From: Microglena sp. YARC
Taxonomy: Eukaryota; Chlorophyta; Chlorophyceae; Chlamydomonadales; Chlamydomonadaceae
Length of the DNA stretch: 64,000 bases
Direction of reading: 5' to 3'
Assembly: GCA_022414725.1 (NCBI GenBank)
Contig: CM039462.1
Coordinates: 47,793,601-47,857,600, forward strand
The translations under genes were made by a program, and so were the position numbers. Below, one piece after another: positions 4,218 to 38,754 of the stretch. The notes below the pieces were generated by a model. That model worked only from the letters and a program-made list of their open reading frames with translations. It was not told the DNA's origin and searched no databases. Within the stretch, counting starts at the first letter, position 1. The number at the start of each line of letters is the position of its first letter.

Positions 4218-4321
4218 CTGCAGCACACGCAACACACACCGAAGATGTTAATAATGCTCGGCCAGCTACATTCGAGAGCTTGCACTGGAAAAATAACTGG
4301 TAAAATGGAAGAATGAAATGA

Positions 4322-15417: not shown

Positions 15418-15639
15418 TTATCTCGTGCGACCCATCCCCTGCACCCCTCCTCCCCTCCCCTCGGTAGTTCTGCTCAAAAACACTTGTGCACCACCACCAC
15501 TACCACCACCAGCAGCAGCAGCGTCGACCTGCGTCTCAAGCGCCTCATTTGAGAGCCTCTCCTTCTCTGCCTTCACCACTTCCACCAGGAACAGCCAGTC
15601 CTCCATGGACTTGACATGGAACATGCATAGCTGAGGCAC
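15418..15639 (-). CDS. GT31 glycosyltransferase, exon 6 (C-terminus)
   Basis: The terminal exon of gene B. The acceptor is cacccatcag|GTGCCTCAG, in phase 0 as required by exon 5. It encodes residues 405-477, ending GRTR and TAA. The first 35 residues (QLCMFHVKSMEDWLFLVE, KAEKERLSNEALE) look like genuine folded and helical sequence. The rest is a low-complexity Ala/Gly/Ser tail from triplet repeats. The first 24 bases of the exon with the splice acceptor are copied many times in the adjacent intron (15640-17450). No donor precedes the stop, so this is taken as the last exon. Confidence 0.8.
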   Translation of the reverse strand: MPQLCMFHVKSMEDWLFLVEVVKAEKERLSNEALETQVDAAAAGGGSGGGAQVFLSRTTEGRGGGVQGMGRTR

Positions 15640-16794
15640 CTGATGGGTGTGGTGTGTGGTGGTGAGGTGTGTTGTTTGTGGAGAGGAATGTGGGGTGGGG
15701 TATTGTGGGTTGGACTTGACATGGAACATGCAAAGCTGAGGCACCTGAGGGGTGTGGTGTGTGGTGTGGGTTGGTGTGGTGTGGTGTGGAGTGAGGAGTG
15801 TGGTGTGGGTTGGGTTAGTGTGCTGTGTGGTGTGGGTTAGTGTGAGTGTGGTGTGTGTGGGAGGGGTGTGGGGTGGGCTGAGGCACCTGAGGGGAGTGTG
15901 GTGTGTGGTGGTGTGGTTTGTGGAGTGGAATGTAAGGTGGGGTATTGTGGGGTGGGTTGACATGGAACATGCACAGCTGAGGCACCTGTGGTGTGTGGTG
16001 TGGGTTGATGTAGTGTGGAGTGAGGAGTGAGGAGTGTGGTGTGGGTTAGGTTAGTGTGGTGTGTGGTGTGGGTTGGTGTGGTGTGGTGTGGAGTGAGGAG
16101 TGTGGAGTGGGTTGGTGTGGTGTGGAGTGAGGAGTGAGGAGTGTGGTGTGGGTTGGATTAGTGTGGTGTATGGGTGGGGGTTTGTGTGGTGTGGTGTGGG
16201 TTGGGGTGTGGTGTGGTGTGGAGTGAGGAGTGGTGGTGTGGGTTGGTGTGGTGTGGAGTGAGGAGTGAGGAGTGTGGTGTGGGTTGGATTAGTGTGGTGT
16301 GTGGTGTGGGTTGGTGTGGTGTGGTGTGGAGTGAGGAGTGTGGTATGGGTTGGGTTAGTGTGGTGTGTGGTGTGGTTTAGTGTGTGTGTGGTGTGTGTGT
16401 GGGGGGGGTGTGGGGTGGGCTGAGGCACCGGAGGGGAGTGTGGTGTGTGGTGGTGTGGTTTTGTGGAGTGGAATGTGGGTGGGGTATTGTGGGGTGGGTT
16501 GACATGGAACATGCACAGCTGAAGCACCTGAGGGGTGTGGTGTGTGGTGTGTGGTGTGTGTTGGAGTGTGGAGTGTGGAGTGTGGTGTGTGGTGTGGAGT
16601 GTGGAGTGTGGTGTGTGTGTGTCGTGTTTGGAGTGTGGTGTGTGGAGTGTGGTGTGTTGTGGGTGTGTTGTGGGTGTGGTGGTGTGTGGAGTGTGGTGTG
16701 TTTGTGGTGTGGAATGTGGTGTGGGGTATTGTGGGTCGGTCTTGACATGGAACATGCACAGCTGAAGCACCTGAGGGGGGTGTTGTGTGGAATG

Positions 16795-16832
<38 letters not shown>

Positions 16833-17450
16833 GTGTGTGGTGTGGGCTGAGGCACCTGAGGGGGTGGTGTGTGGAATGGAGTGTGTGCGTGTGTGTGTGT
16901 GTGTGGTGTGTGTGTGGTGTGTGGTGTGTGTGGTGGTGGTGTGTGGTGTGTGGTGTGGGGCTGAGGGCACCTGAAGGGGGGTGGTGTGTGGAATGGAGTG
17001 TGTGGTGTGTGTGTGTGTGTGTGTGTTGTGTGGTGGTGTGTTGGTGTGGGTGAGGCACCTGTGTGTGGAATGGAGTGTGTGTGTGTGTGTGTGGTGTGTG
17101 TGTGTGGTGTGTGGTGTGGCTGAGGCAACTGAGGGGTGGTGGTGTGTGGAATGGAGTGTGTGTGGTGTGTGTGTGTGTGGTGTGTGGTGTGGGCTGAGGC
17201 ACCTGCGGGGGGTAGTGTGTGGAATGGAGTGTGTGTGGTGTGTGTGTGGTGTGTGGTGTGGGCTGAGGCACTGAGGGTTTGTGGTGTGTGTGTGTGTGAG
17301 GTGTGGGCTGAAGCAACTGAGGGTGGGTGGTGTGTGGGGTGGGCTGTGACACCTGAGGGTTAGGGTTTGGGTAGTGTGGTGTGTGGTGTGTGTGGTGTGG
17401 GGTGGGTTGGGGTAGTGTGGGTCGGGTTGGGTTGGTGTGGTATGTGGAGT
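15640..17450 (-). repeat. Array of exon 6 3' splice junctions
   Basis: Four long decoys (near 15717-15750, 15957-15989, 16499-16530 and 16741-16772) repeat the exon 6 start plus acceptor: on the plus strand TTGACATGGAACATGCACAG followed by CTGAGGCACCTGA. At least nine shorter ones repeat only CTGAGGCACCTGAGGG. Between them lies GTGTGG satellite. Every decoy keeps the CAG|GTGCCTCAGC acceptor context on the minus strand. The proline/threonine/histidine frames here are read-through of the satellite. Confidence 0.85.
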
Positions 17451-17739
17451 CAGGTGTGTAGTTTGCGATGTGATGTGATGTGTGGGGTGGGTGGGGTGGC
17501 GTGGTGCGTGGTGTGTGGGGCAGGTTGAGGTAGTGTTGGTTGGTGTGGTGTGTAGGGTGGTGTGGGTTGGTGTGGTGTGGTGTGTGGTGTGTGGGCTGGA
17601 AGTGGGTGGGGTAGGGGTGCGCCCGTGGAGAACAAACACATTTGGATGGTGCGTGTGTGATGTGGTGTGGTGTGCGTGGTTTGGGCTGGTGTGGTGTGGT
17701 GTGTGTGGGGGTAAGGAGCAAGTGGAGCAGATATGCATA

Positions 17740-20700
17740 TACCGTAAGAGCGAATCTTAGCCGGCATCATTACAACGTGCTTCTCCCCCCTTACACCCTC
17801 CTCCTCCCTTACTTGTCCCACCCCATTCATAACTCCCCTTGCACTCCTCCTCCTCCCACCCCACTCCCTGCATATCTGGATCACCTTGGGGCGAATCTCA
17901 GCCGCATCAATGACACCTTGTGCTCCCCTCCCTTGCACCCCTCCTCCTCCCTACCCCACCCTCCATGTGTACCTCCTCCCTACCCACCCCTCCATGTGTA
18001 CCCCTCCTCCCCCACCACTCGTCCTCCCTTTCTTCTCCCCACCCAGACCCTGCATATCTGCAACACCCTGGGGCGAAACTCAGTCACCATGAATGACACC
18101 TTGTGCTCTCCTCCCCTTGCACCCCTCCTCCTCCCTTTTTATCCCCACCCTTGCAATAGAGCCCTTGCACCCTCCTCCTCCTTCCTTCTCCCCACCTTGC
18201 ATAGATCCGCCTTGCACCCCTCCTCCTCCCTTCCTTCTCCCACCCCCTGCATAGATCCCCTTGCACCCCTCCTCCTCCTTCCTTCTCCCACCCCCTGCAT
18301 AGATCCCCTTGCCCCCTCTCCTCCCTTCCTTCTCCCCACCCCTGCATAGATCCCCTTGCACCCTCCTCCTCCCTTCCTTATCCCCACTCCTGCATAGATC
18401 CCCTTGCACCCCTCCTCTCCCTTCCTTATCCCCACCCCCTGCATAGATCCCCTTTCACCCCTCCTCCTCCCTTCCTTCTCCCCACCCCTGCATAGATCCC
18501 CTTGCACCCCTCCTCCTCCCTTCCTTATCCCCACCCCTTGTATAACACCCTTGCACCCCTCCTCCTCCCTTCCTTCTCCAGCACCCTTGCATAGATCCCC
18601 TTGCACCCCTCCTCCTCCCTTCCTTATCCCCACCCCTTGCATAGATCCCCTTGCACCCTCCTCCTCCTTCCTTCTCCCCACCCTGCATAGATCCCCTTGC
18701 ACCCTCCTCCTCTCCCTTCTCCCCCCCCTGCATAGATCCCCTTGCACCCCTCCTCCTCCCTTCCTTCTCCCACCCCCTGCATAGATCCCCTTGCACCCCT
18801 CCTCCTCCCTTTCCTTCTCCCCACCCCTGCATAGATCCCCTTGCACCCCTCCTCCTCCCTTCCTTCTCCCCACCCCCTGCATAGATCCCCTTGCACCCCT
18901 CTCCTCCCTTCCTTCTCCCCACCCCCTGCATAGATCCCCTTGACCCCTCCTCCTCCCTTCCTTATCCCCACCCCTGCATAGATCCCCTTGCATCCCTCCT
19001 CCTCCCTTCCTTATCCCCACCCCCTGCATAGATCCCCTTGCACCCCTCCTCCTCCCTTCCTTTATCCCACCCCTTGTATAACACCCCTTGCACCCCTCCT
19101 CCTCCCTTCCTTCTACCCACCCCCTGCATAGATCCCCTTGCACCCCTCTTCCTCCCTTCCTTATCCCCACCCCTTGTATAACACCCTTGCACCCCTCCTC
19201 CTCCCTTCCTTCTCCCCACCCCCTGCATAGATCCCCTTGCACCCCTCCTCCTCCCTTCCTTATCCCCACCCCTTGTATAACTCCCTTTGCACTCCTCCTC
19301 CCTACCCCCACCCTCCATGTGTACCCCTCCTCCTCCTACCCCACCCCTCCATGTGTACCCCTCCTCCTCCCTACCCCACCCCTCCATGTGTACCCTCCTC
19401 CTCCCTACCCACCTCCATTTGTACCCTCCTTCCCCACCACTCGTCCTCTCTTTCTTCTCCCCACCCCAACCCTGCATATCTGCAACACCCTGGGGCGAAT
19501 CTCAGTCACCATGAAGGACACGTTGTTCTCCCCTCCCCTTGCACCCTTCTTCCTCCCTTCCTTCTCCCCACCCCTGCATAGATCCCTTGCACCCCTCCTC
19601 CTCCCTTCCTTCTCCCACCCCTGCATAGATCCCCTTGCACCCTCCACTTCCCCACCTCACCCCTTCCTTTGCACCCCTCCTCCCCACCGCAGAAAAAGGG
19701 GCGCCTTGGGCATATCTCAGCCGCCACCAATTTCACTTTGTCCTTCCTCCCCTTGCACCCCTCCGCCTCACCACCCCACCCTTCCCATGCACCTTCCACC
19801 CACCCACTTCACCCCACCCCACACCCTGCATAACTGGGTCACCTTGGGGCGAATCTCAGCCACCATGGACACCTTGTCCTCCCTCCCTTACACACCTCCT
19901 CCTCCCTCCTCCTCCCCACCCCCTGCATAACTCCCCTTGCTCCCCTTCCTCCTCCCACCCACCTACCCCTTTCTTTGCACCCTTCCTCCCCACCCCAGAA
20001 AAAGGGCACCTTAGGGCATACCTCAGCCGCCATCAATTTCACTTTGTCCATCCCTCCCCTTGCACCTTCAGCTTCCCCACCCCACATCTTACCTTGCACC
20101 CTTCCACACCACCCTTCCCCCCCCCTTCCTTTGCCCCCCTCCCTCTACCCCCCCCCCCCCCCCCCCCCTTCCCTGCACCCTTCTCCCCACCCCACCCCTT
20201 CCCTTGCACCCTTCACCTCACCCACCCCACCTACCCCCTGCATAATTGGATCACGTTGGAGCAAATCTCAGCCGCCATCAACGACACTTTGTGCTCCCCC
20301 CCCCCTTACCCCCTCCGCCTCCACACACCAAACCTTCCTTTGCGCCCCTCCTCTCCACCCCACCCTCCCTTGCATATCTGGGTCACCTTGGAGAAAAATC
20401 TCAGCCGCCATCAACGACACTTTGTGCTCCCCCCCCCTTACCTCCGCCTCCACACCCCAAACCTTCCTTTGCGCCCCTCCTCTCCACCCCACCCCTCCCC
20501 CTTGCATATTTGGGTCACCTTGGGGTGAATCTCAGCCGCCATCAAGGACATTGGTGCTCCCCCCCCCCTTACACCCCTCCGCTCCACACCGAACCCATCC
20601 TTTGCACCCCTCCTCCCCACTCCGCCCTCCACTTGCACCCCCCGCCTCCCACCCACCCCCCCTTCCCTTCCACCTCACCCCACTCCACCCCTTTCCACCC

Positions 20701-21311
20701 CTCCCCTTGCACCTTGCACCCCCGCCTCCCCACCCCCCCCTTCCCTTCCACCCCACCCCACTCCACCCCTTTCCACCCCACCCCACCCTCCTCCTTCCCA
20801 TCCACTGCATAACTAGGACACCTTTGGGCGAATCTCAGCCGCCATCAATGACACGTTGTGCTCCCCTCCCTTACCCCTCTTCGCCTCCCCACCCCCCCGC
20901 CCTTCCTTTGCACCCCTCCTCTCGCCCCTCCCCTCCCCTTACACCCCTCCTCCCCACCCCCCCTCCCTTACACCCCTCCGCCTCCCACCCCGCCCACACC
21001 CTTACTATGCACCCCTTCTCACGCCCCACCCTCCCCTTGCACCCTCCTCCCCACCCACCCGTCCCCTTACCCCTCCTCGCCTCCCCACACCACCACCCCT
21101 TCCTTTGCACCCCTTCTCTCCGCCCACCCCTCCCTTGCACCCCTCCTCCCCACTCCACCCGTCCCTTACCCCCTCGCCTCCCCACCACCGCCCTTCCTTT
21201 GCATCCCCTCCTCTCCGCCCCACCTCCCCTTGCACCCCTCCTCCCCCCACACCCCTCCCCTTACCCCCCTCCGCCTCCCCACCCTGCCCACCCCCTGCAT
21301 ATCTGGTTCAC
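17740..21311 (-). repeat. Array of exon 5 5' splice junctions
   Basis: Eleven decoys of the exon 5 end plus donor occur near 17751, 17889, 18071, 19491, 19708, 19851, 20011, 20259, 20395, 20523 and 20825. On the minus strand the usual form is ATGGCGGCTGAGATTCGCCC followed by CAAG|gtgacc. They keep most of the coding sense of VSLMAAEIR-K. They are separated by a 49-50 bp C-rich satellite (CCTGCATAGATCCCCTTGCA type, densest at 18140-19640), itself plausibly derived from the junction unit. Confidence 0.85.
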
Positions 21312-21482
21312 CTTGGAGCGAATCTCAGCCGCCATTAACGACACGTTGTGTGCCCCATACTCTATGTGGCTCCAGTACTCGTCATCCATGAAGACGTCCG
21401 TAATCTCGTGAGGGCCGTAAAGGCGCATCCAGAAGCCAAGCAGCCAGTCCTCCCAGTGGCCCCCAATGTACTTGCTCTCCAC
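21312..21482 (-). CDS. GT31 glycosyltransferase, exon 5
   Basis: A 171-bp exon, phase 0 at both ends, with acceptor aatattatcag|GTGGAG and donor TCCAAG|gtgaac. It encodes residues 348-404, including GGHWEDWLLGFWMRLYG. The position of the ED pair about 68 residues after the DDD motif, and the W-E-D-x-L-x-G pattern, correspond to the E-D-V-x-x-G segment of GT31 enzymes, where the acidic residue is the proposed catalytic base. VFMDDEYWSHIEYG follows. The end of this exon is the source of the decoy array that fills the next intron. Confidence 0.82.
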
Positions 21483-21499
21483 CTGATAATATTGGGATA

Positions 21500-21855
21500 C
21501 GGGTGTATGGGCGTGTGTATGGGTGTGTTTATGGGAGTGTGTGCATGGGTGTATGTGTGTGTGTATGGGTGTATGGGTGTGTGTTTGGGTGTGTGTATGG
21601 GTGTGTGTGTGTGTGTGTGTGTGTTTGTGTGTTTGTGTGTATGGGCGCATGGGTGTGTGTATGGGTGCATGGGTGTGTGCCCGGGTGTGTGTGTAAGGGT
21701 GTGTATATGGGTGTGTGTATGGGTGTATGGGTGTGTATATGGGTGTGTGTATGGGTGTGTGCATGGATGTATGGGTGTGTGGGTGTGTGTATGGGTGTGT
21801 GTATGGGTGTATGGGCATATAGGTGTGGGTGTGGGAGTATGGGTGTATGGGTGTG
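21500..21855. repeat. GTGTATGG satellite
   Basis: Degenerate GTGTGTATGGGTGTATGG repeats next to the exon 5 acceptor. They give valine/cysteine/glycine frames that are not genes. Confidence 0.9.
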
Positions 21856-21893
21856 AAAAAAATGGAGAAATCAAATCAAATCGAGTACAATAA

Positions 21894-22616
21894 TGTTTGT
21901 CCTGGGTGGCCGGGTATTACCGGTAATATCCGGAATTCGATTCCAGTAATCTTCTGAAATCTTTCTCGTCTCGACTACTTTGTCCTCCTCCTCTGAAGCA
22001 GCGCTACATAGCTCATTCTTCTATATATCGCTGGCATCAAGTTCCTCTACCTGGGAGCTTGCCGGGAGAAGACTTTTTAGCCCAGCCTCGACCTCGCCCT
22101 CGACATTGAGCGTTACAATGAAGCCGCGGCCTTTACCATGCTTCGTCGGTCGATGCTATGGGTGCGGCTGATGAGCCATCCTGCACATCTTTGTTAACAG
22201 CACAGCCCCCCCCCCAACCCACCACACACACACACCAACACACACACACACATGCACATGCACAAACATGCATATACATGCATATACATGCACAAACATG
22301 CACACACACACATACATACACGCATGCACTCTATATTACTTTATTATTATTATTATTACTTTATTAACAGCGCCGGGTAGAAACTCACAACGATTGCCAG
22401 TTTTTCAGTCGCTTGTAGCTAATTGGCAAGAAAAGCGCAAACTTTGGAAGGCGATTTGGCGAAAAACTGCACCTGCGACCACACCCGCCCGATTACGATG
22501 GTGAAGATGGCATCAACAGCAGTACACTGCGTGCGAGGCAGTGTTTATGAGTCGACCCGCCCAAAGTGTCAATCAACATGCAGGGTATGACCCGTAATAC
22601 CCACCCAGGACGAACA
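21894..22616. mobile_element. Putative non-autonomous DNA element, 723 bp
   Basis: The ends are inverted: TGTTTGTCCTGGGTGG at the left and CCACCCAGGACGAACA at the right, followed inward by GGGTATTAC and GTAATACCC. The flanks share ATAA, a possible 4-bp target duplication. The interior contains a CA-rich microsatellite and no transposase frame. Superfamily unknown. Confidence 0.65.
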
Positions 22617-22799
22617 ATAAAATATAATCAAGGAAAGTAAAATAAAATCGAGACAAGCAAAATAAAATCGAGAAAAGTAAAATAAAATCGAGAAAGTAAA
22701 ATGAAATCGGATGAATTGTGCATGATGTTCATAACTCATAAGTCCGTTAAGCAATGGGCTCATTTGGATTCCAGCATTGCACCAGGAAAATTGTGATCA

Positions 22800-22909
22800 T
22801 CATTCACCATCATCATCATCATCATCATCATTATAATCACCATCATCATTTATTATCATTATCATCATTCATCACCATCATTCACTTCCATCATCATCAT
22901 TGATCATTG

Positions 22910-22963
<54 letters not shown>

Positions 22964-22988
22964 GTCACCATCATCATCATCATCGTCG

Positions 22989-23025
<37 letters not shown>

Positions 23026-23036
23026 TCACCACCACC

Positions 23037-23086
<50 letters not shown>

Positions 23087-23266
23087 CATCACCATCATTC
23101 ACCATCATCATCATCTTTCATCATCATCATCACCACCATCACCATCATTATTCATCATCATCATCATCACCATCATCATTTATTACCATTATCATCATTC
23201 ATCACCATCATTCACTTCCATCATCATCATTGATCATCATCACCATCATCATCATCATCATCACCG

Positions 23267-23305
<39 letters not shown>

Positions 23306-23392
23306 CCTTTATCATCATCATCATCATAATCACCGTCATCATCATCATCATCATCACCTTTATCATCATCATCATCATCATCATAATCACCG

Positions 23393-23423
<31 letters not shown>

Positions 23424-23583
23424 TCATCATCATTCACCACCATCATCATCATCTTTCATCATCATCACCACCATCACCAACATTATTCATCACCATCATC
23501 ATTTATTATCATTATCATCATTCATCACCATCATTCACTGCCATCATCATCATTGATCATCATCATCGTCATCATAATCACCG

Positions 23584-23637
<54 letters not shown>

Positions 23638-23691
23638 GCACCTTCATCATCACCATCATCATCATCATCATCATCATCATCATTAACACCG

Positions 23692-23770
<79 letters not shown>

Positions 23771-23824
23771 TCACCATCATCATCATCACCATCATCAGCA
23801 TCATCAGCATCATCATCATTCACC

Positions 23825-23856
<32 letters not shown>

Positions 23857-23918
23857 CATCATCATCATTCACCATCATCATCATGATCATCATCATCATC
23901 ATCATCATCATCATTCAC
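22800..23918. repeat. (CAT)n/(ATG)n triplet array, 1.1 kb
   Basis: Runs directly up to the donor of exon 4. It is mostly CAT triplets with CAC, CAG and TTCAC interruptions. The plus-strand heptamer CATTCAC (GTGAATG on the minus strand, the same as the exon 4 donor) recurs at several places inside. Poly-His, poly-Ile, poly-Met and poly-Asp frames are artefacts. Confidence 0.95.
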
Positions 23919-24044
23919 CTTGGGGACGACCTCTAGGAAGAGATCAACAGAGAAGCCGTTGAGTGACCCATAGCAGTAGTGGTAGTACTGGGTGTAGGGT
24001 CCCCACATGCTATACTTACTCGGCGCAAGCTCCGCGCCCTTCGT
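23919..24044 (-). CDS. GT31 glycosyltransferase, exon 4
   Basis: A 126-bp exon (42 codons) with acceptor gcctgacacag|ACGAAG and donor CCCAAG|gtgaat, phase 0 at both ends. It encodes residues 306-347: TKGAELAPSKYSMWGPY, then QYYHYCYGSLNGFSVDLFLE. The tyrosine/glycine-rich YCYGSLNGFS segment fits the place where GT31 enzymes have Y-P-x-Y-C-x-G-x-x-Y-x-L-S, just before the ED motif. The first 46 bases plus the acceptor recur four times upstream in the intron. Confidence 0.8.
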
Positions 24045-24059
24045 CTGTGTCAGGCATAC

Positions 24060-25320
24060 ATGAACGTGTGTATGTGTATGTGTGGGTACGGGTGTGTATG
24101 GTTGTGTATGGGTGGGTATGTGTGGGTACGGGTGTGGGTTTGTATGGGTGTGTATGTGTGGTTATGTGCAGGTACGGGTGTGTATGTGTGTGTATGTGTG
24201 TGTACAGGTGTGTATGGTTGGGTATGTGTGTGTACGGGTGTGTATGTGTGTGTATGTGTGTGTATGGGTTTGTATGGGTGTGTATGTGTGGTTATGTGCA
24301 GGTACGGGTGTGTATGTGTGTGTATGTGTGTGTACAGGTGTGTATGGTTGTGTATGGTTGGGTATGTGTGTGTACGGGTGCGTATGTGTGTGTATGTGTG
24401 TATGGGTTTGTATGGGTGTGTATGGGTGGAAGGTCCCCACATGCTATACTTACTCGGCGCAAGCTCCGCGCCCTTCGTCTGTGTCAGGCATACAGGTATG
24501 TGTGTGTATGTGTGTGCATGGGTTTGTATGGGTTTGTATGTGTGTGTATGGTTGTGTATGGGTGGGTGTAGGTTGACATGTACGGGTGCAAGGTCCCCAC
24601 ATGCTATACTTACTCAGCGCAAGCTCCGCGCCCTTCGTCTGTGTCAGGCATACATGAATGTATGTGTATGGTTGTGTATGTGCTTGTATGTGTGTGTATG
24701 GTTGTGTATGGGTGGGTGTAGGTTTACATGTATGGATGACAGTTCCCCACATGCTACACTTACTCAGCACCAGCTCCGCGCCGTTTGTCTGCGCCAGGCA
24801 TACATGTGTGTGTATGTCTGGGTGCGGGTGTGTATGGTTGGGTATGGTTGGGTATGTGTGGGTACGGGTGTGTATGTGTGTGTATGTGTGTATGGGTTTG
24901 TATGGGTGTGTATGTGTAGTTATGTGTGGGTACGGGTGTGTATGTGTGTGTATGTGTGTGTATGTGTGTGTATGGGTTTGTATGGGTGTGTATGGTTGGG
25001 TATGTGTGGGTGCGGGTGTGTATGTGTGTGTATGTGTTTGTATGGGTTAGTATGGGTGTGCATGTGTGGTTGTGTGTGGGTACGGGTGTGTATGTGTGTG
25101 TATGTGTGTATGGGTTTGTATGGGTGTGTATGGTTGGGTATGGTTGAGTATGTGTGGTTACGGGTGTGTATTTGTTTGTATGTGTGTGTATGGGTTTGTA
25201 TGGGTGTGTATGTGTGGTTATGTGTGGGTGCGGGTGTGTATGTGTGGTTATGTGTGGGTTCGGGTGTGTATGTGTGTGTATGGGTTTGTATGGGTGTGTA
25301 TGTGTGGTTATGTGTGTGAC
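24060..25320 (-). repeat. GTGTATGG satellite with exon 4 3' junction decoys
   Basis: Decoys of the exon 4 start and acceptor lie at about 24432-24493, 24590-24655 and 24746-24803. Each carries CCCCACATGCTA, then CTTACTC, then CGCCCTTCGTCTGTG or close variants. They are spaced by GTGTGTATG satellite. A fifth copy lies 5 kb away at 29774-29832, beside the same satellite. Confidence 0.85.
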
Positions 25321-25329
25321 ACACACACT

Positions 25330-26110: not shown

Positions 26111-26229
26111 ATGTTGCTGAAAGACCGACTGGTGGGAGCGGATGTAGATGTTGGGATGGAGAGAGGACTGGGAGGCAGACATGGGTTGGAGGGAGGGAGG
26201 GGGGGAGCAATGGCCCATGGTATGGAGGG

Positions 26230-28460
26230 GTGGGGGGCATGGGGTGAAGGGAGGTGGGTGGGGTGTCCATGGGGTGGAGGGATGTGTTGGGGGTGGAGAA
26301 GGGGTGGAGGGAGGTGTGTGGGGCAGCCATGGGGTGGAGGGATGTGTGTGGGGTGTCCATGGGATGGAGGGAGGTGTGTGGGGTGTCCATGGGGTGGAGG
26401 TAGGTGCGTGGGGTGGCCATGGGTTGAAGGGAGGTGTGTGGGGTGTCCATGGGGTGGAGGGATGTGTGTTGGGCAGCCATGGGGTGGAGGGAGCTGTGTG
26501 GGGCAGCCATGGGGTGGAGGGAGCTGTGTGGGGTGGCCATGGGGCGGAGGGAGGTGTGTGGGGTGGCCATGGGGTGGAGGGAGGTGTGTGGGGCAGCCAT
26601 GGAATGGATGGAGGTGTTTGGGGCAGCCATGGGGTGGAGGGATGTGTGTGGGGCAGCCATGGGGTGGAGGGATGTGTGTGGGGCAGCCATGGGTTGGAGG
26701 AATGTGTGTGGGGTGTCCATGAGGTGGAGGGAGGTGTGTGGGGTGTATATGGGGTGGAGGGAGGCGTGTGGGGCAGCCATGGGGTGGAGGGAGGTGTGTG
26801 GGGCAGCCATGGGGTGGAGGGAGGTGTGTGGGGCAGCCATGGGGTGGAGGGAGGTGCGTGGGGCAGCCATGGGAGGAAGGGATGTGTGTGGGGTGTCCAT
26901 GGGGTGGAAGGAGGTGTGTGGGGTGTCTATGGGGTGGAGGGAGGCGTGTGGGGCAGCCATGGGGTGGAGGGAGGTGTGTGGGGCAGCCATGGGGTGGAGG
27001 GATGTGTGTGGGGCAGCCATGGGGTGGAGGGAGGTGCGTGGGGCAGCCATGGGAGGAAGGGAGGTGTGTGCGGCAGCTATTGGGTGGAGGGAGGTGTGTG
27101 TGTTGGGGGCAGGCATGGGGTGGAGGAACATGTTCGCGGTAGCCATGGGGTGGAGGGAGGTGTCATATGCAGCCTTGGGGTGGAGGGAGGACTGGGGGCC
27201 AGCCATGAATTGAGGTGTTGGGGTCAGCCATGGGGGGAGGGAGGTGTGTGGGGCAGCCATGGGGAGGAGGGAAGTGTTGGGGGCAGCCATGGGGTGGAGG
27301 AAGATGTTAGGAGCAGCCATGAGGTGGAGGGAGGTGTTAGGGGCAGCCATGGGGTGGAGGGAAGACTTGGGGGCAGCCATGGGGTGGAGGGAGGTGTTCG
27401 GGGCAGCCATGGGGTGGAGGAATGTGTGTGGGGTGTCCATGGGGTGGAGGGAGGTGTGTGGGGTGTCTATGGGGTGGAGGGAGGCGTGTGGGGCAGCCAT
27501 GGGGTGGAGGGAGGTGTGTGGGGCAGCCATGGGGTAGAGGGAGGTGTGTGGGGCAGCCATGGGGTGGAGGGAGGTGCGTGGGGCAGCCATGGGGTGGAGG
27601 GATGTGTGTGGGGTGTCCATGGGGTGGAAGGAGGTGTGTGGGGTGTCTATGGGGTGGAGGGAGGCGTGTGGGGCAGCCATGGGGTGGAGGGAGGTGTGTG
27701 GGGCAGCCATGGGGTGGGGGGAGGTGTTGTGGGGCAGCCATGGGGTGGAGGGAGGTGCGTGGGGCAGCCATGGGAGGAAGGGAGGTGTGTGCGGCAGCTA
27801 TTGGGGTGGAGGGAGGTGTGTGTGTTGGGGGCAGGCATGGGGTGGGGGGAGGTGTGTGGGGCAGCCATGGGGTGGAGGGAGGTGCGTGGGGCAGCCATGG
27901 GAGGAAGGGAGGTGTGTGCGGCAGCTATTGGGTGGAGGGAGGTGTGTGTGTTGGGGGCAGGCATGGGGTGGAGGAACATGTTCGCGGTAGCCATGGGGTG
28001 GAGGGAGGTGTCATATGCAGCCTTGGGGTGGAGGGAGGACTGGGGGCCAGCCATGAATTGAGGTGTTGGGGTCAGCCATGGGGGGAGGGAGGTGTGTGGG
28101 GCAGCAATGGGGAGGAGGGAAGTGTTGGGGCAGCCATGGGGTGGAGGGAGATGTTAGGAAGCAGCCATGGGTGGAGGGAGGTGTTAGGGGCAGCATGGGG
28201 TGGAGGGAGGACTGGGGGGCAGCCATGGGGTGGAGGGAGGTGTTCGGGGCAGCCATGGGGTGGAGGGAGGTGTTAGAGGCAGCCATGGGGTGGAGGGAGG
28301 ACTGGGGGGCAGCCATGAATGGAAGTGTTGGGGTCAGCCATGGGGGGGGGGGGGGGAGGTGTGTGGGGTGTCCATGGGGTGGAGGGATGTGCGTGGGGCA
28401 GCCATGGGGTGGAGGGAGGTGTCGTGGCAGCCATGGGGTGGAAGGAGGACTGGGGGCCCT
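26230..28460. repeat. 30-bp minisatellite, about 74 copies
   Basis: The unit is GGTGTGTGGGGCAGCCATGG plus GGTGGAGGGA. Length divisible by three and lack of stop triplets leave frames of more than 570 codons open on both strands, none of which I regard as a gene. Higher-order structure is present: a block of variant units beginning near 27078 recurs near 27926, with the first units of the block also near 27799. Confidence 0.95.
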
Positions 28461-29190: not shown

Positions 29191-29199
29191 ACGGAATAT

Positions 29200-29835
29200 T
29201 CGCCGTATGTGTGGGTATGGTTGAGTATGTGTGGGTACGGGTGTGTATGTGTGTGTATGTGTGTATGGGTTTGTATGGGTGTGTATGTGTGGTTATGTGT
29301 GGGTACGGGTGTGTATGGGTGTGTATGTGTGTATGGGTTTGTATGGGTGTGTATGGTTGGGTATGGTTGAGTATGTGTGGGTACGTGTGTGTATGTGTGT
29401 GTATGTGTGTGTATGGGTTTGTATGGGTGTGTATGTGTGGTTATGTGTGGGTACGGGTGTGTATGGGTGTGTACGTGTGTATGGTTTGTATGGGTTGTTG
29501 GTTGGGTATGGTTGAGTATGTGTGGGTACGGGTGTGTATGTGTGTGTATGTGTGTGTATGGGTTTGTATGGGTGTGTATGTGTGGTTATGTGTGGGTACG
29601 GGTGTGTATGGGTGTGTACGTGTGTATGGGTTTGTATGGGTGTGTATGGTTGTGTATGGTTATGTGTGGGTAGGGTGTGTAATGTTGGGTAGTGTGTGTA
29701 TGGGTTTGTATGGGTGTGTATGTGTGGTTATGTGTGGATATGGGTGGGTGTAGGTTGACATGTATGGGTGCAAGGTCCCCACATACTATACTTACTCAGC
29801 ACCAGCTCAGCGCCGTTTGTCTGCGTCAGGCATGT
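29200..29835 (-). repeat. Detached part of the exon 4 junction array
   Basis: The same GTGTGTATGG satellite as at 24060-25320, ending with a fifth exon 4 decoy at 29774-29832. The 3.9 kb between the two blocks therefore looks like later insertions into one original array. Confidence 0.75.
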
Positions 29836-29859
29836 ACGTGTCCATGTGTGTGTATGTGT

Positions 29860-29966
29860 TTCAGTCTTTCTGTGTTTCTTTCAGTCTATATGCCCGTGTG
29901 TCAGTCTTTCTGTGTGTCTGTCTGTGTGTCTGTCTTTCAGTCTTTCTGCCTGTCTGTCTGCCTGCC

Positions 29967-30018
<52 letters not shown>

Positions 30019-30240
30019 AGTCTTTCTGTCTGCTTGTCTGTCTGTCTTTCTATGTATCAGTATTTCTGTGTGTCTATCTGTCTGTCTGTCTGTCAGTCAG
30101 TCAGTCAGTCAGTCAGTCAGTCAGTCAGTCAGTCAGTCAGTCAGTCAGTCAGTCAGTCAATAACTCTATGTGTCTGTCTGTCTGCCTGCCTGTCAGTGTG
30201 TCTATGTGTCTCTTTATTTTTTTGTTTGTCTGTGCGTCTG
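29860..30240. repeat. (TCTG)n and (TCAG)n tetranucleotide tracts
   Basis: Runs of TCTG at about 29950-30017 and TCAG at about 30088-30157 within a degenerate pyrimidine-rich region. Confidence 0.95.
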
Positions 30241-30269
30241 TGTGTATGGATGTTACTGTGCAGTGGCTA

Positions 30270-30559
30270 GGGACTTGCCTAACCTCACATTTCTTCAGGT
30301 TTGGGAAGTGGGCGTAAAAGTCATCATAAATTCAGTTCAGTTATCAGTTAGATGATGTTCTTGTAGCCTCCTCACAAACAGCATTGAGCATCTTTTTTCG
30401 ACCTTGGATTTTTCAAGTTCATGTAGATATTCCTCTACTATAGCTAGGGAGTTTTAGGATGACCTTGGTTATAGTAAATGTACCAACGAATTATGTATTT
30501 GTATGTATATACACATATTCTGTACCTGTATATATATACAATATATAATAATAATAATA

Positions 30560-30591
<32 letters not shown>

Positions 30592-32290
30592 CGTAATACT
30601 AATACTCTAATATTAATAAAAAGTATATATTTATTTGCATTACCTGCGTCAAGTACGTCTACAGGTTTTGGAAGTGGGCGTATCAATCGTCATCAAGTTT
30701 GATGATGTGCTTGTATCCGCCTTTGCACACAGCATTAAGGATATTATTTCGACCTTAAAGTTAAAATTCATATAATATTCAACTACTATACCCGAACTAT
30801 ACCTTGGGATATTTTGGATGACCTGACCATGTGCACTGTATACCAGTATGTTTCAAATAATTATGTATTTTTATATAATACTAAAATGAATACTAATACT
30901 TAAAATACTAATACTAATACTAATACTAATACTCATAATATTTAGGGAGAGGCAAAGACCGATAGATCTATATAGATCTATCGGTCTATATAGATCTATA
31001 TTTGTGAAGCCGATAGATCTATCGCTATCCTTGTCCGAGCCCCCCCCCCCCCCCGGTCACGATATATCTATATAGATCTATATGGGCAGTTTGAGCTGTC
31101 AACTGTTCCTCGACCTTGCTTTTCGCTTTCTTCGCACTGTTCCAAATACAAACGGCACTTATTCTTCTGAATGAAGCTGGCTTACTAAGTTATAAGAGCG
31201 ATCGGAAGTCGCCTGCTTCCGTCTTGGCCATTCCTGAGAAAGCCCCACCAGCTTCTAACTGGAGAGCAAACTTCGATGCGCGGATTGAAGAAGGTGGACC
31301 TTTCCTGTTGTTTTGACGCGCTTATGACATTGGCGTCAGTCCCAAAAACATTAGCAACTTGACGAACGCGCACATGAAGGCATGCAAGGGGGGATCAACA
31401 ACCGAGCCGGCTGCATTGTGGAACAGGACCTGGACAGCTCTTCTAAGAACACTCGCCAACTACAAGCTCGGCAGCCTGGGCCCAAGCTTGAGGTCGCATT
31501 TGGTGGGCTGAACAAGGTGTCCATTTAATCCTACTAGTCTACTACCCAAGCAAAGCAATCGTGGCATGATGATGAATTGATGATGATGACGAATTTATGA
31601 TGATGATGAACTGTTCGGCAACAAGTAGCAGCTTCTAGGCAGCTCCCTGTGCACTAGCTGGCATTAGTTTTGGCTGAATAGCCAGCCAGGGGAGCTGCCT
31701 AGAAGCTGCACAAATTAGACAGTTTAAAGACTTTTCTAGGACCTGATGTATGCTGAACTGCTGATGGTGATGAACTGATGATGGGGATAGGGGGGACTGG
31801 GCCTGGGTTGTTTTGGAGGCTATGTGTGACCTTTTGTATGTGACGCGCTGGCAGGGAGCTTCACAAGTGATTACTGAAATCAAAATAAATCCTGCATTTG
31901 TTTTTAAGGCACAAGGCACCTTAATATGACGCAGACTACATGGAAAATAAATCCCAGATTTTCCAGAGGCCTCCTTGAGGTACCGATATACCAGAAATTG
32001 ATATACTTTGATATATATAGATCTATATAGATCTATATGTTGGGACAATATAGATCTATTTGCCGCCCCCTAATAATATTACTAATAATAATGTGCATTA
32101 CCTGTGTCAAGTACGTCTACAGATGTGCTTGTATCCGCCTTCGCACATACATTGAGCATATTTTTTCGACCTTTTAAGTTTAAATTCATATAAATATTAA
32201 ACTACTATACCCGGACTATACCTTGGGATGTTTTGGATGGCCTGACCTTGTACACCGTACATGTACCAAATAATTATGTATTTGTATATT
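30270..32290 (-). repeat. Exon 3 5' splice junction decoys, three copies
   Basis: Copies of the exon 3 end near 30290-30420, 30638-30880 and 32095-32290 share TTTGGGAAGTGGGC and/or GCATTACCTG-GTCAAGTACG, then GATGTGCTTGTA and a common downstream ACTACTATACC-GGACTATACC. The copy at 30638 keeps the donor (cag|gtaatgc) but its coding part has stops. Between the second and third copies is mostly AT-rich sequence, with (TAA)n near 30545-30590 and an ATAGATCT palindrome cluster at 30960-31085. Confidence 0.75.
31619..31713. mobile_element. M2 element, short foldback form
   Basis: AGCAGCTTCTAGGCAGCTCC at one end and GGGAGCTGCCTAGAAGCTGC at the other form inverted ends within about 95 bp. Confidence 0.6.
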
Positions 32291-32437
32291 ACTAATAATG
32301 ATACTAATACTTGTAATAATAATATAATAATAATAAAAAATTAATAATAATAATACTAATACTAATACTAATACCCGTTAAAGGTTTATTACTTTATAAT
32401 ATAATAATAATAATAAATTATATTTAATGTGCATTAC

Positions 32438-32640
32438 CTGTGTCAAGTACGTCTTTAGGTTTGGGAAGTGGGCATACGAGTCATCATCAAGTTTGATGAT
32501 GTGCTTGTATCCACCTTTCCACACAGTATTCAGGAGCTCCACGAGCTGGACCACAGTGTGGTACATCTTCCCATCGTTATGGCTCTCTTTACAATTCACT
32601 AGGAGCAGATCTCCATTGGTCTCCTGCTCCTGGCAAGCCT
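32438..32640 (-). CDS. GT31 glycosyltransferase, exon 3 (DxD motif)
   Basis: A 203-bp exon: acceptor cctgacggag|AGGCTT, donor ACACAG|gtaatg. Its first two bases complete the codon begun by exon 2, and it ends in phase 0. It encodes residues 238-305: EACQEQETNGDLLLVNC, then ESHNDGKMYHTVVQLVELL, then YKHIIKLDDDSYAHFPNL. This is the core of the GT31 (Galactosyl_T) domain: the E...D-L-L...E-S/N-x-x-D-G-K segment followed by K-x-DDD (residues 289-291), which binds the metal-sugar-nucleotide complex. Both edges of this exon are duplicated into the flanking introns. Its acceptor has one G fewer than in the decoys. Confidence 0.9.
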
Positions 32641-32699
32641 CTCCGTCAGGTATTGGGGGAGTCTGGGTGGGTGGGTGGGTGGGGGTCTTGGGGCTGGGT

Positions 32700-32863
32700 A
32701 ATGGTGGTGGTGTGATCACTGTGTGGTTCATTTCCCATCGTTATGGCTCTCTTTACAATTCACTAGGAGCAGATCTTTATTGGTCTCTTGCTCCTGACAA
32801 GCCCTCTCTGTCAGGTAGTTGGGGGAGTCTGGGTGGTCGTGGGGGTCTGGGAGGTGGAGGTCT

Positions 32864-32907
<44 letters not shown>

Positions 32908-34050
32908 TGTGGGTTGGTGGGTGGGGGTTTGGGGTCTGAGTGTTGGTGGTGGTGGTGGTGGTGGACCACTGTGTGGTACATCTTCCCATCGTTATGGCTT
33001 TCTTTGTAATTCAATAGGAGCAGATCTCCATTAGTCTCTTGCTCCTGGCAAGCCCTCTCCGTCAGGTAGTTGGGGGAGTCTGGGTGGGAGAGGTAGGTGG
33101 GTGGTGGGTGGGGGGGGGGGGGACCACTGTGTGGTACATCTTCCCTCGTTATGGCTATATTTACAATTCACTAGGAGCAGACCTTCATTGGTCTCTTGCT
33201 CCTGACAAGCCCTCTCCATCAGGTAGTTGGGGGAGTCTGGGTGGGTGCGGGTGTGCAGATGTGGGGGTCTGGGTGTTTTTAGAGGGAGGGGGACTACTGT
33301 GTGTTACACATTTCCCTCCTTATGGCTCTCTTTGCAATTCACTAGGAGCAGATCATTATTGGTCTCTTGCTCCTGGCAAGCCCTCTTTGTCAAGTAGTTG
33401 GGTGGGTCTGGGTGGGTGAGGTAGGTGATGGGGGTGGGGGTGGGACCACTGAGTGTTACATCTTCCCATCGTTATGGCTCTCTTTACAATTCACTAGGAG
33501 CAGATCTCCTTTGGTCTCTTGCTCCTGGCAAGCCCTCTCCGTAAGGGAGTTGGGGGAGTCTGGGTGGATGGGGGTGTGAAGGAGTGGGGGTCTGGGTGGT
33601 TTTGGGGGGTGGGGGACTACTGTGAGTTACATATTACCCTCCTTATGGATCTCTTTGCAGTTTACTAGGAGCAGATCCTCATTAGTGTCTTGCTCCTGGC
33701 AAGCCCTCTTCGTCAGGTAGTTGGGGGAGTCTGGGTGGATGGGGGTGTGAAGGAGTGGGGTCTGGGTGGTTTTGGGGGGTGGGGGACTACTGTGAGTTAC
33801 ATATTACCCTCCTTATGGATCTCTTTGTAGTTTACTAGGAGCAGATCCTCATTAGTGTCTTGCTCCTGGCAAGCCCTCTTCGTCAGGTAGTTAGGGGAGT
33901 CTGGGTGTGTGGGTTTGTGGGTGTGTGTGGGAGGGACACAGTGTGTTTCATCTTCCCATCGTTATGGCTCTCTTTACAATTCACTAGGAGCAGATGCCCA
34001 TTAGTATCTTGCTCCTGGCAAGCTCTCTCCGTCAGGTAGTTGGGGAGTCT
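32700..34050 (-). repeat. Array of exon 3 3' splice junctions
   Basis: Eight decoys lie near 32738-32818, 32990-33070, 33160-33225, 33325-33405, 33475-33550, 33645-33722, 33825-33893 and 33965-34043. Each carries the first 60-80 bases of exon 3: on the plus strand GGCTCTCTTT, ATTCACTAGGAGCAGAT, CTCTTGCTCCTGGCAAGC, then the acceptor region CCTCTCCGTCAGGTAG. They are separated by GTGG-rich satellite. Confidence 0.9.
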
Positions 34051-34374
34051 GGGTGGGTGGGGTAGGTGGGTGGTGGGGTCCGGATGTCTGTGGGTGTGTG
34101 TGGGGGTCAGGGTGTTTGGAAGATGGGGTGTATGGGCGGGTCTGGGGTGGTGAGGGTTTGGGGTCTGGAGTGGGGGGTCTGGGGGTCTGGGGTGGGGTGG
34201 TGTGTGGGGGGTCTGGGTGGAGTGGGGGTGGATACAAATAAAAGCTTCTATCCGAGTGAGTGAGTTTGTGGGATCAAAGTTGAAATTTTCAAGAAGAGAG
34301 AAACAACAGTAAGAGAAGACGAGAGAAATGGACAAATGATTACAAAAAGCAGCGACGTGTAAAAGGGTTACCTC

Positions 34375-34800
34375 CCCCCCACCCCACCCCAGACCCCCAC
34401 CCCCACCCCCAGACCCTACCCACCCATACCTGGGTTATCCACCACCCACCCCAGACCCCCAACCCACCCCAACCCCCCACCCAACCCCAGACCTCCTCCA
34501 CCCATACCTGGGTTACCCACCCCTACCCACCCCAGACCCACCCACCCCACCACCACCTCACCTATACCTGGTTGACCCCCCCCCCAGACCCCCCACCCAC
34601 CCTCCCGCCACCCAGACACCCACACCCCCAGACACCCAGACACCCCAGATCCCCACACACCCCCACACTCCACCCACACCCTAACCCCCACCCACCCCCA
34701 CCCCAGAACCCACCCCCACACACAAACCCTCCACCCCGGACCCCCCCCACCCCAACCCAACCCACGCCACCCAGAACCCCACACACCCCAGACCCCCTCC
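34375..34800 (-). repeat. C-rich satellite with exon 2 5' junction decoys
   Basis: Three short copies of the exon 2 donor region occur near 34428, 34507 and 34565 (plus ATACCTGGGTTATCC, ATACCTGGGTTACCC, ATACCTGGTTGACC; the real junction is ACCTGTTTTACCGACG). On the minus strand each reads like GGTAACCCAG|gtatgg. Confidence 0.65.
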
Positions 34801-34806
34801 CCACAC

Positions 34807-35011
34807 CTGTTTTACCGACGGCGAATATGACGTCGAAGTCTGCAGGGTATTGGGCGTAGGTGGTTCGGAGGATAGCCCTCCGATCGAAGGTTTGAACGCG
34901 GGTGTATACATACACGAGGCCTAGCTTGCCACCCTTGATCTTCCAGGGGTGCTGGCGCCAGGGGCATCTCCAGTGCCAGATAGAGGCATTGAGATTCATT
35001 CGTTCGGCTGC
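34807..35011 (-). CDS. GT31 glycosyltransferase, exon 2
   Basis: A 205-bp exon: acceptor atgtttccag|GCAGCC (phase 0, matching exon 1) and donor AAACAG|gtgtgg (phase 1, matching exon 3). It encodes residues 170-237: RMNLNASIWHWRCPWR, then GLVYVYTRVQTFDRRAILRT, then TYAQYPADFDVIFAVGKT. The R-R-A-I-x-R-T-T/W...F-x-x-G-K arrangement is the entry motif of the GT31 domain. The first 100 bases of this exon are the most heavily duplicated segment in the window. Confidence 0.88.
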
Positions 35012-35029
35012 CTGGAAACATTATGGTGA

Positions 35030-37120
35030 TGGTGATGGTGGTGTTGATGGTGATGGTTGCATGTGGTGTACACGTACACGAGGCCTAACTTGTCGCCCTT
35101 GATCTTCCAGGGGTGCTGGCGCCAGGGGCATCTCCAGTGCCAGATAGAGGCATTGAGATTCATTTGTTCTGCTACCTGGAAACATTATGGTGATGGTGAT
35201 GGTGGTGTTGATGGTGATGTTTGCATGTGGTGTACACGTACACGAGGCCTAACTTGACGCCCTTGATCTTCCAGGGGTGCTGGCGCCAGGGGCATCTCCA
35301 GTGCCAGATAGAGGCATTGAGATTCATTCGTTCTGCTACCTTGAAACATTATGGTGATAGTGGTGGTGGTGGTGATGGTGGTGGTGGTTTTGGTGGTAGT
35401 GGTGGAAGTTGTGGTGGTGGTGGTGGTGGTAGTGTTTGTGTTTATGTTTGTGGTAGTGGTTGTGGTTGTGTTGGTGATGGTTGTGGTTGTGGTGGTGAAG
35501 GGGATGCTATTTATGGTTGCAGTGGGTGTAGATGTACACGAGGCCTAGCTTTCCGCCCTTGATCTTCCAGGGGTGCTGGCGCCAGGGACATCTCCAGTGC
35601 CAGATAGAGGCATTGAGATTCATTCTCTCTGCTACCTGGAAACATGATGGTGATGGTGGTGGTGATGGTGATGTTGGTGGTGGTGGTGATGGTGGTGGTG
35701 GTGGTGATGGTGGTTGTGGTGTTGGTGGTAGTGTTGGTGTCGGTGGTAGTGGTGGTGGTGGTGATGGTCGTTGTGGTGGTGATGGTGGTTGTGGTGGTGG
35801 TGGTAGTTGTTGTAGTGGTTACCGTGGTGGTCGTGGTGCCGGTGATGGTGGTGATGGTTGCAGTGGGTGTAGACGTACACGAGGCCTAGCTTGCCGCCCT
35901 TGATCTTCCAATGGGTGCTGGCGCCAGGGACATCTCCGGTGCCAGATAAAGGTGTTGAGATTTGTTAGATCAGCCATCTGAGAAAGAATGGTGATGGTGA
36001 TGGTGGTGGTGGTGGTGAAGGAGAGGGTGTTGATTGTTGCAGTGGGTGTAGACATACAGGAGGCCTAGCTTGCCGCCCTTGATCTTCCAGGGGTGCTGGC
36101 GCCAGGGACATCTCCAGCGCTAGATTAAGGTATTGATATTTGTATGATCAGCTACCGGAAAATGATGGTGATGGTGGTGTTGGTGTTGAAGGTAATGGTG
36201 TTGATGGTTGCAGTGGGTGTAGACGAATACGAGGCCATGCTTGACGCCCTTGATCTTCCAGGGGTACAGGCGCCAGGGGCATCTCCAGAGCCAGATAAAG
36301 GTATTAAGATTTGTATGATCAGCTGCCTGAAAACATGATGGTGATAGTGGTGGAGGTGGTGATGGTGGTGATGGTTGCAGTGGGTGTACACATACACGAG
36401 GCCTAGATTTGACGCTCTTCATCCTGCAGGGGTGCTAACGCCAGGGGCATCTCCAGAGCCAGGTAGAGGCATTGAGATTCATCCGATTAGCTAACTGGAA
36501 ACATGATGGTGATGGTGGTTGTGGTGGTGAAGGTGATGGTGTTGATGGTTGCAGTGGGTGTAGACGTAAACGAGGCCTAGCTTGCCGCCTTTGATCTTCT
36601 AGGGGTGCTGGCGCCAGGGGCATCATCAGTGCCAGATAGAGGCGTTGAGATTCATCTAATCAGCTACCTGGAAAATGATGGTGATGGTGTTGGCGTCAGG
36701 GACATCTCCAGTGCCAGATAAAGGTGTTGAGATTTGTATGATCAGCTCCCTGGATAGATGATCATGGTGGTAGTGGTGGTGGTGATGGTGGTGGTGGTGG
36801 TTTTGGGGTTGGAAGTGATGGTGTTGGTGGTCGTGGTGGTGGTGGTGGTGGTGGTGTGGGCAGTGGTAGTGGTGGTGGTGGTGGTGGTGGTGGTGGTGGT
36901 GGTAGTGATGGTGCCAGGGGCATCTGCAGTGCCAGATAGAGGCATTGAGATTCTGCAATCAGATACCTGGAAAAATGGTCGTTTGGTGGTGGTGAAGGTG
37001 ATGGCGATGATGGTTGCAGTGGGTTTAGACGTACACGAGGCCTAGCTTGCTGCCCTTCATCTTCCAGGGGTGCTGGTGCCAGGGGCATCTCCAGTGCCAG
37101 ATCAGCTACCTGGATAAATG
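35030..37120 (-). repeat. Array of exon 2 3' splice junctions
   Basis: About eleven decoys lie near 35075, 35236, 35541, 35880, 36063, 36241, 36404, 36574, 36688, 36913 and 37035. Full ones carry about 100 bases of exon 2 plus the acceptor: plus-strand landmarks are ACGAGGCCTAGCTTG, GATCTTCCAGGGGTGCTGGC, GCCAGATAGAGGCATTGAGA and CTACCTGGAAA. Microsatellite of GGTGGTGATGGT type sits between them. Coding sense is largely preserved in several copies. Confidence 0.92.
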
Positions 37121-37139
37121 ATGAGGCTGATGAGGATGA

Positions 37140-37318
37140 GGAGGCTGGGATGAGGACAAGGATGGGGATGGGGATGGGGATGGGGATGGGATGGGGATGG
37201 GGATGGGGATGGGGATGGGGATGGGGATGGGGATGGGGATGGGGATGGGGATGGAGATGGGGATGGGGATGGGGATGGGGATGGGGATGGGGATGGGAAT
37301 GGGGATGGGGATGAGGTG
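37140..37318. repeat. (GGGGAT)n hexanucleotide repeat
   Basis: About 26 copies with one slip near 37190. Its minus strand encodes proline/histidine repeats. Confidence 0.95.
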
Positions 37319-37552
37319 GTTTGATTACGGGGTTTGATTGCGTGTCAGCCTTGAGGCTGCACACCCTTTGCGGGCATCAAACATTGGTGGTTTAAACAGT
37401 GAACAGTATAAACATTGTAGACAGTACAAACGTGCAAAGATTGAACACAAACTTAAACATAAACATTGTAAACAGTGTAAACATATAGCATTAAACAGTG
37501 TTAATAGTAAACTGTCTAATGGTTGGAGACAGTATAACGTACAAACCATAGC

Positions 37553-37746
37553 TTTTCTTTTTAGCTACAAGCACCAGCTTCTAGGCAGCTCCCCTGGCTG
37601 GCTATTGAGCCAAACTAAATGCGAGCTAGTGCATCTTGAAGCAGACACAATTCACTGCCCAGAACTGCTGACACATTTGGTTTTAGCTCAGTAGCTGGCT
37701 CAAGCAGCTGTCTAGAAGCTACTGCTTGAAGCCGAAAAGAAAAGCG
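37553..37746. mobile_element. M2 element, both ends intact
   Basis: Ends: CTTTTCTTTTTAGCTACAAG followed by CACCAGCTTCTAGGCAGC at the left; GCTGTCTAGAAGCTACTGC followed by TTGAAGCCGAAAAGAAAAG at the right. The left terminus looks like a polypyrimidine tract plus AG. Confidence 0.75.
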
Positions 37747-37846
37747 AAGTACAAACAGTAAATATCGGGAGTATATAAAGTACTACACAACACTCATGAG
37801 TGCAAAAGGCAATCAAACAGATGTGAACAGCTCTAAGACATATCTA

Positions 37847-37962
37847 GATCAGCCAGGTAGACAAATGAAGTTCGACGTTGCCTACCTCATCTGGGGCGTA
37901 GTTAATGAAGTTATCCAGATCAGCCAGGTAGACAAATTAAGTTTTACGTTGCCTATCTACCT
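37847..37962 (-). repeat. 71-bp duplication of the exon 1 5' junction
   Basis: GATCAGCCAGGTAGACAAAT recurs 71 bp apart. The unit includes plus-strand CCTACCTCATCTGGGGCGTA, a copy of the end of exon 1 and its donor (real: CTACCTTATCTGGGGCGTAG). Confidence 0.8.
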
Positions 37963-37964
37963 AC

Positions 37965-38471
37965 CTTATCTGGGGCGTAGTCAATGAACTTCTCAGCTTG
38001 CTCCTTCAGAGATGCTATCATCTCATCCGTGTACACCATGGTGCTCCGCCGTTGCAGCACTCCTTGCTCTCCTTGCTCCTCCTGCTCCCCCTCTCTCCCT
38101 CTTTTGCCGCCTGCCAGCCTCCCATCCATCCCCCGTGACAGCTCTCCCTGCTCTCCCTGCTCCCCCTCCCTCCCCCCATCGCTACCTGTCTGCCTCCTGG
38201 CAAAAAAAAAAAACGGCTGGTCTTCCTGCCTGCTGCCTGCCTGCCTCCATTCACCGCCCCCCAACTTTAGTACAGGCTCAGGGCCGGGCGGTAGCAAGAG
38301 TTCTGGATGGATGAGATCTATGATCTGACGATCTGATGATCTCAGATCCATGATCTGACCTGCATCAGCGCCATGCTGAGTTTGGGTGGTGGAGGGCGCT
38401 GGTGCAGGTTCAGCATCAGCTAGGGTGAAGCAGACGAGCATGGCCCATGGGAGGAGGTGCAGGCCGCGCAT
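37965..38471 (-). CDS. GT31 glycosyltransferase, exon 1 (N-terminus)
   Basis: The first coding exon of gene B: ATG at 38471, donor GATAAG|gtaggt, 169 codons, ending in phase 0 like the start of exon 2. The protein begins MRGLHLLPWAMLVCFTLADA, a likely signal peptide or short signal anchor as expected for a Golgi/secretory enzyme. It continues with a proline- and glutamate/glycine-rich stalk (GEQGEQGEL, four Phe from an A run) and ends with helical TDEMIASLKEQAEKFIDYAP. Joined to exons 2-6 it gives 477 residues, similar to ordinary GT31 enzymes. All five joints agree in phase. GT31 members transfer Gal, GlcNAc or GalNAc in beta-1,3 linkage; the specificity here cannot be told. Confidence 0.78.
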
Positions 38472-38663: not shown

Positions 38664-38694
<31 letters not shown>

Positions 38695-38700
38695 GGGGGG

Positions 38701-38754
<54 letters not shown>

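Follow-up and report, generated by a model that had tools for sequence, protein, structure and literature searches.

Why should the introns of a single gene be crowded with copies of that gene's own splice junctions? A sequence-only reading of the window, the whole 64,000-nucleotide stretch of DNA analysed here, had noted such copies beside at least seven of the ten splice sites of a GT31-type gene, and had proposed that they arose by tandem duplication across exon-intron borders, either through some process linked to splice sites or under selection that tolerates only duplications which splicing can discard. The gene has six exons on the minus strand with GT/AG at its junctions, and its predicted product matches the Pfam domain Galactosyl_T (PF01762, E = 1.4e-7), with P0006 from Chlamydomonas eustigma being the best named homologue outside EukProt. 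A 77-base nearly pure G run (C on the gene strand; 38678-38754) lies directly upstream of the gene start.

Each border, represented by up to 160 exon bases and 60 intron bases, was searched against the gene region by blastn (E < 1e-3), and a separate local alignment test was controlled with 10 dinucleotide shuffles per site. Same-strand copies spanning the junction adjoined seven of the ten splice sites by blastn, and the shuffle-controlled test was positive at eight, which upholds both the claimed minimum of seven and the proposed duplication across exon-intron borders. Both acceptor and donor sides, and thus 5' and 3' exon boundaries, carry arrays (Table 1). The blastn counts agreed with the sequence-only reading at the exon 1 donor (one spanning copy), the exon 3 acceptor (eight, besides one low-complexity copy) and, among the matches listed, the exon 4 acceptor (four), while other counts held only in part: at the exon 2 acceptor, for which about 11 copies had been claimed, 10 span the junction and the remaining one is exon-only; at the exon 3 donor two of three do so, accompanied by fragments; at the exon 5 donor eight of 11 reach E < 1e-3, with at least three others weaker; and at the exon 6 acceptor the four long copies stood but the short ones, put at about nine, came to five at E < 1e-3 (nine spanning copies together). 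The three copies reported at the exon 2 donor were not recovered, with no spanning copy by blastn and a single weak match above shuffles (45 vs 27). By the shuffle-controlled test, copies were absent at the exon 4 donor and the exon 5 acceptor, at the start and stop codons of the gene itself (0 of 2), and at the splice sites of an LRRC56-type neighbour (0 of 2). Without low-complexity filtering, blastn also gave two minus-strand matches, both of low complexity, that touch the exon 3 acceptor. Divergence between copies and exon is about 5 to 24% (blastn). Of 38 copies in five arrays, 36 have an intact AG or GT dinucleotide; this set excludes the donor copies of exons 1 and 3, a single short copy of exon 6 and the low-complexity match at exon 3. 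The border-copy arrays span 8,682 (40%) of the 21,598 intron bases of the gene, and TRF repeats cover 69%, so the estimate that about 22 kb had grown by such duplication, which equals the entire intron length, was too generous.

Table 1. Exons of the GT31-type gene, copies of its borders, and a neighbouring stop-codon array (positions in the window)
Feature	Positions	Strand	Evidence or remark
Exon 1 of GT31-type gene	37965..38471	-	
Exon 1 donor junction, single copy, intron 1	37841..37915	-	E 3e-18, 81%
Exon 2 acceptor array, 10 spanning + 1 exon-only, intron 1	35065..37102	-	exon identity 0.80-0.94, peak near exon
Exon 2 of GT31-type gene	34807..35011	-	
Exon 3 acceptor array, 8 copies, intron 2	32714..34070	-	blastn
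Exon 3 of GT31-type gene	32438..32662	-	5' part: two 1-nt deletions vs most upstream copies
Exon 3 donor region, two copies (32071-32118, 30602-30741), intron 3	30602..32118	-	blastn
Exon 4 acceptor, distant copy, intron 3	29765..29859	-	blastn
Exon 4 acceptor, three copies, intron 3	24423..24840	-	blastn
Exon 4 of GT31-type gene	23919..24044	-	
Exon 5 of GT31-type gene	21312..21482	-	
Exon 5 donor array, 8 at E<1e-3, intron 5	17833..20866	-	GT intact 8/8
Exon 6 acceptor array, 9 at E<1e-3 (4 long, 5 short), intron 5	15711..17262	-	blastn
Exon 6 + stop codon	15418..15639	-	
LRRC56-type stop array, 60-bp units copying last codons + stop, 3' UTR, no splice site	45086..45556	+	

The history of the copies is partly legible in their differences from the exon. 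Exon identity dropped with distance in all five arrays (rho = -0.75, -0.57, -1.0 with n = 4, -0.76 and -0.32), with a joint permutation P of 5e-5 that is the floor of 20,000 permutations; taken singly, three of the five arrays had P > 0.05 or n = 4. Alleles common to at least two copies and missing from the exon were biased to third codon positions (8:17:39, P = 7e-6), while for private alleles the bias was not clear (21:17:31, P = 0.10), and the contrast between private and shared alleles gave P = 0.08. On our reading, the exon probably evolved on under coding constraint and the copies beside it did not; several copies carry frame-breaking indels. Selection on the decoy dinucleotides was not significant, with 2 of 76 AG/GT positions changed vs 94 of 1155 constrained codon positions (P = 0.12). 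At exon 4, the copies at 29859 and 24840 share alleles that neither the exon nor the two nearer copies have, which rules out a pure conveyor without copy-of-copy events; judged by these alleles, some copies evidently descend from other copies and not from the exon.

The copies also surface in predicted proteins. P0001, the EukProt model of the GT31-type gene, includes, letter for letter, two exon 3 copies (33901-33809 and 33731-33639) and one exon 2 copy (37109-37035), all three intron-derived and in window order, and duplicated exon pieces are present in P0002 and P0003 as well. Because the copies decay like noncoding sequence, their inclusion in these three models looks like annotation error, and border copies thus seem to corrupt gene models. 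P0001 is in frame at the two 1-nt deletions that distinguish the exon-proximal exon 3 copy from the majority of those upstream, so an assembly error or a strain difference is likely there.

Beyond this gene, the pattern is present in the introns of four unrelated gene families on several contigs. Three GT31-type paralogs elsewhere in the 568-Mb assembly likewise have additional exon heads or tails. Their exon 4 acceptor units extend to about DLFL[D/E] and those of the window gene end near WGP, which suggests that the same junction gave rise to independent arrays. Chaperonins and kinesins were sampled by match score alone, taking the best 30 of 56 chaperonin and the best 10 of 124 kinesin matches, each with 1.5 kb flanks; these 40 exons are not 40 independent genes, because several matches share a gene, and their edges are domain-match edges, not proven splice sites. 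Local direct copies followed a simple rule, with heads upstream in 12 exons and tails downstream in 14, no wrong-way and no inverted copies among the 40, and only weak upstream copies of middle pieces in two (E about 5e-6). Altogether, border copies occurred in 18 of 40 exons and at 26 of 80 edges, counts that ignore copies whose partner lies mainly within the exon match. Among dyneins, 17 of 18 partial copies, classed by profile coordinates alone, followed the same head-upstream, tail-downstream rule and one was unclassed; they came from six of 14 gene clusters, the majority from two. Kinesin rows picked for overlap gave seven that obeyed the rule and one unclassed, 15 of the 124 rows having been left untyped. 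The longest array outside the window (G000:C1:61042890-61044687) consists of a dynein heavy-chain exon followed by seven tail copies and preceded by one head copy. The DEAD-box family was tried as a further DNA sample and set aside, because a single near-uniform repeat family accounted for most of its matches; on several contigs, numerous matches with comparable scores over profile positions 3-167 suggest an amplified mobile element or gene family.

Whether the exon border itself is special was addressed by repeat coverage, which here includes the copies left out of the counts above. Over the 80 edges of the 40 exons, coverage was 0.358 at exon edges vs 0.378 in the flanks (difference -0.02, 95% CI -0.09 to 0.05), ranging from 0.36 to 0.43 between -1000 and -20 and falling to about 0.32 between -20 and +20 bp; because match edges need not be true splice sites, any narrow peak would be smeared out. 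Inside exons it was 0.21 at 50-100 bp, 0.05 at 150-200 bp, 0.03 overall beyond 150 bp from the edge, and 0 at 200-300 bp, where only the 12 matches of at least 400 bp contribute. By this match-edge measure, the exon border is not measurably special in repeat coverage. Arrays moreover straddle two stop codons, that of the LRRC56-type gene and that of a chaperonin-family gene (L052), and at a stop codon, as at a splice site, the cell can disregard downstream sequence. The duplication process is not uniform, because coverage reached 0.674 in the introns of the GT31-type gene vs 0.238 elsewhere in the window.

Given these observations, the copies are most likely minisatellites of the kind called 'mirages', that is, local tandem duplications, probably arising genome-wide, which persist where splicing or a stop codon would discard the extra copy; rampant local tandem duplication combined with purifying selection is our best reading. 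Speaking against it are the uneven repeat coverage inside and outside the gene, the copy-free splice sites of the LRRC56-type neighbour, the modest contrast between private and shared alleles (P = 0.08) and the descent of some copies from other copies. Slippage or unequal exchange would make tandem duplicates of stretches tens to a few hundred bases long. If such a stretch includes an exon edge, the copy still attached to the exon body would retain a working site and the other would become an intron decoy. Further events would move earlier copies outward from the exon, and there they would decay. Because the decoys retain AG or GT, the spliceosome would need to pick the working site by context, namely the complete exon. 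Purifying selection suffices to explain the nearly repeat-free exon interiors without any border-seeking mechanism, which bears out the suggestion that only duplications discarded by splicing are tolerated. A rival account, of mutation tied to splice sites or transcription and favouring borders (R-loops, AG|GT microhomology or splicing-coupled breaks), did not fare as well and we regard it as unlikely: seven or eight of ten borders are affected in one gene, whose introns also exceed the remainder of the window in repeat coverage, but the 80 edges show no excess over their flanks, the two stop codons carry arrays, and intron interiors hold large arrays unrelated to any border, such as that at 26238-28448.

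Even less probable is that the copies are functional, as alternative or mutually exclusive partial exons or as selected decoy sites. The nearly universal retention of AG/GT, which might be taken as a sign of use, is not significantly above that at constrained codon positions, private alleles are spread nearly evenly over codon positions, several copies are broken in frame, and the inclusion of three copies, two from exon 3 and one from exon 2, in P0001 is better attributed to a probable annotation error; alternative exons in particular are unsupported by the codon-position counts. That the arrays are assembly artefacts is scarcely credible. The two 1-nt deletions in the exon-proximal exon 3, missing in P0001, indicate that small errors are possible, but the copies diverge too visibly from the exon (about 5 to 24%), the pattern recurs in four gene families on several contigs, and P0001, which differs in exon 3, has copies in window order, though this model may stem from a related assembly.

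The preferred reading, local duplication filtered by purifying selection, places the arrays beside a known class of structures. Two reports on lancelets describe 'mirages', minisatellite-like duplications of intron-exon boundaries in Adh3, TnC, the globin genes BflGb6 and BflGb9, and PGBD5, with normal splicing and length instability (PMC3087553, PMC3902484), and short border arrays were previously known from a few lancelet genes. Lancelet mirages and the GT31-type arrays have in common tandem repeats that span the boundary, occurrence at 5' and 3' exon ends, units of similar size and an AG/GT that is often kept. Unlike the lancelet cases, the present arrays come from a likely green-algal host; they affect the majority of borders within one gene simultaneously, with at most 10 spanning copies per array, and they extend to 26 of 80 edges in two further families and to stop codons. 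Because lancelet genes bear the same structures, we file the arrays as a variant of mirages, to judge from their sequence anatomy, on a wider scale and extended to stop codons; the novelty relative to what those sources describe lies in the scale, in the stop-codon arrays and in a host that is likely a green alga, and the structure at each locus already has a name. Border arrays in algae were not described in the titles and abstract openings of the literature matches listed, a search whose scope left subscription journals mostly outside.

Could the same process also have given birth to introns? In potato RdRp, one tandem duplication over an intron-exon boundary created a new intron (PMC4974935). 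This model of gain predicts that a new intron resembles the adjacent exon at its ends, and here the first 16 bases of intron 5, an intron covered to 98.6% by local direct repeats, match the exon 6 head at 12 of 16 positions (at most 8 in 24 other intron-exon combinations), while the end of intron 3 and the exon 3 tail agree at 12 of 20 positions (other combinations at most 9). The end of intron 5 matched the preceding exon tail at only 6 of 20, no better than other combinations. Three paralogs align gap-free and without an intron across both the intron 4 and the intron 5 position, in a comparison without an outgroup, so intron loss in the three is as parsimonious as gain. Gain of introns 5 and 3 by tandem duplication is thus only suggested; the matches would fit it but fall short of proof, half of the signature being missing in each. 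In potato RdRp there was one event, and comparison with relatives revealed the new intron, whereas the GT31-type gene displays mostly growth of existing introns.

A bolder proposal, to which we give rather less than even weight, is that introns in this lineage both grow and are born mainly through tandem duplication across borders, with introns acting as conveyor belts that lay down dated exon copies, arrays forming a stratified fossil record of past exon sequence, and site choice made by exon definition. The source sequences of introns are seldom recoverable (PMC4974935); here they are visible in many genes, and intron growth and birth by tandem duplication therefore become measurable. The putative decoys would likewise serve as natural tests of how the spliceosome chooses among sites of identical local sequence.

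Elsewhere in the window, the open reading frames at 48741-52269 are presumably those of a Ty1/copia-type retrotransposon, going by their motifs, and a tandem array of 12 units of 29 bp (50046-50400) lies within this region. A protein search with the gene at 2193-4235 gave one match.
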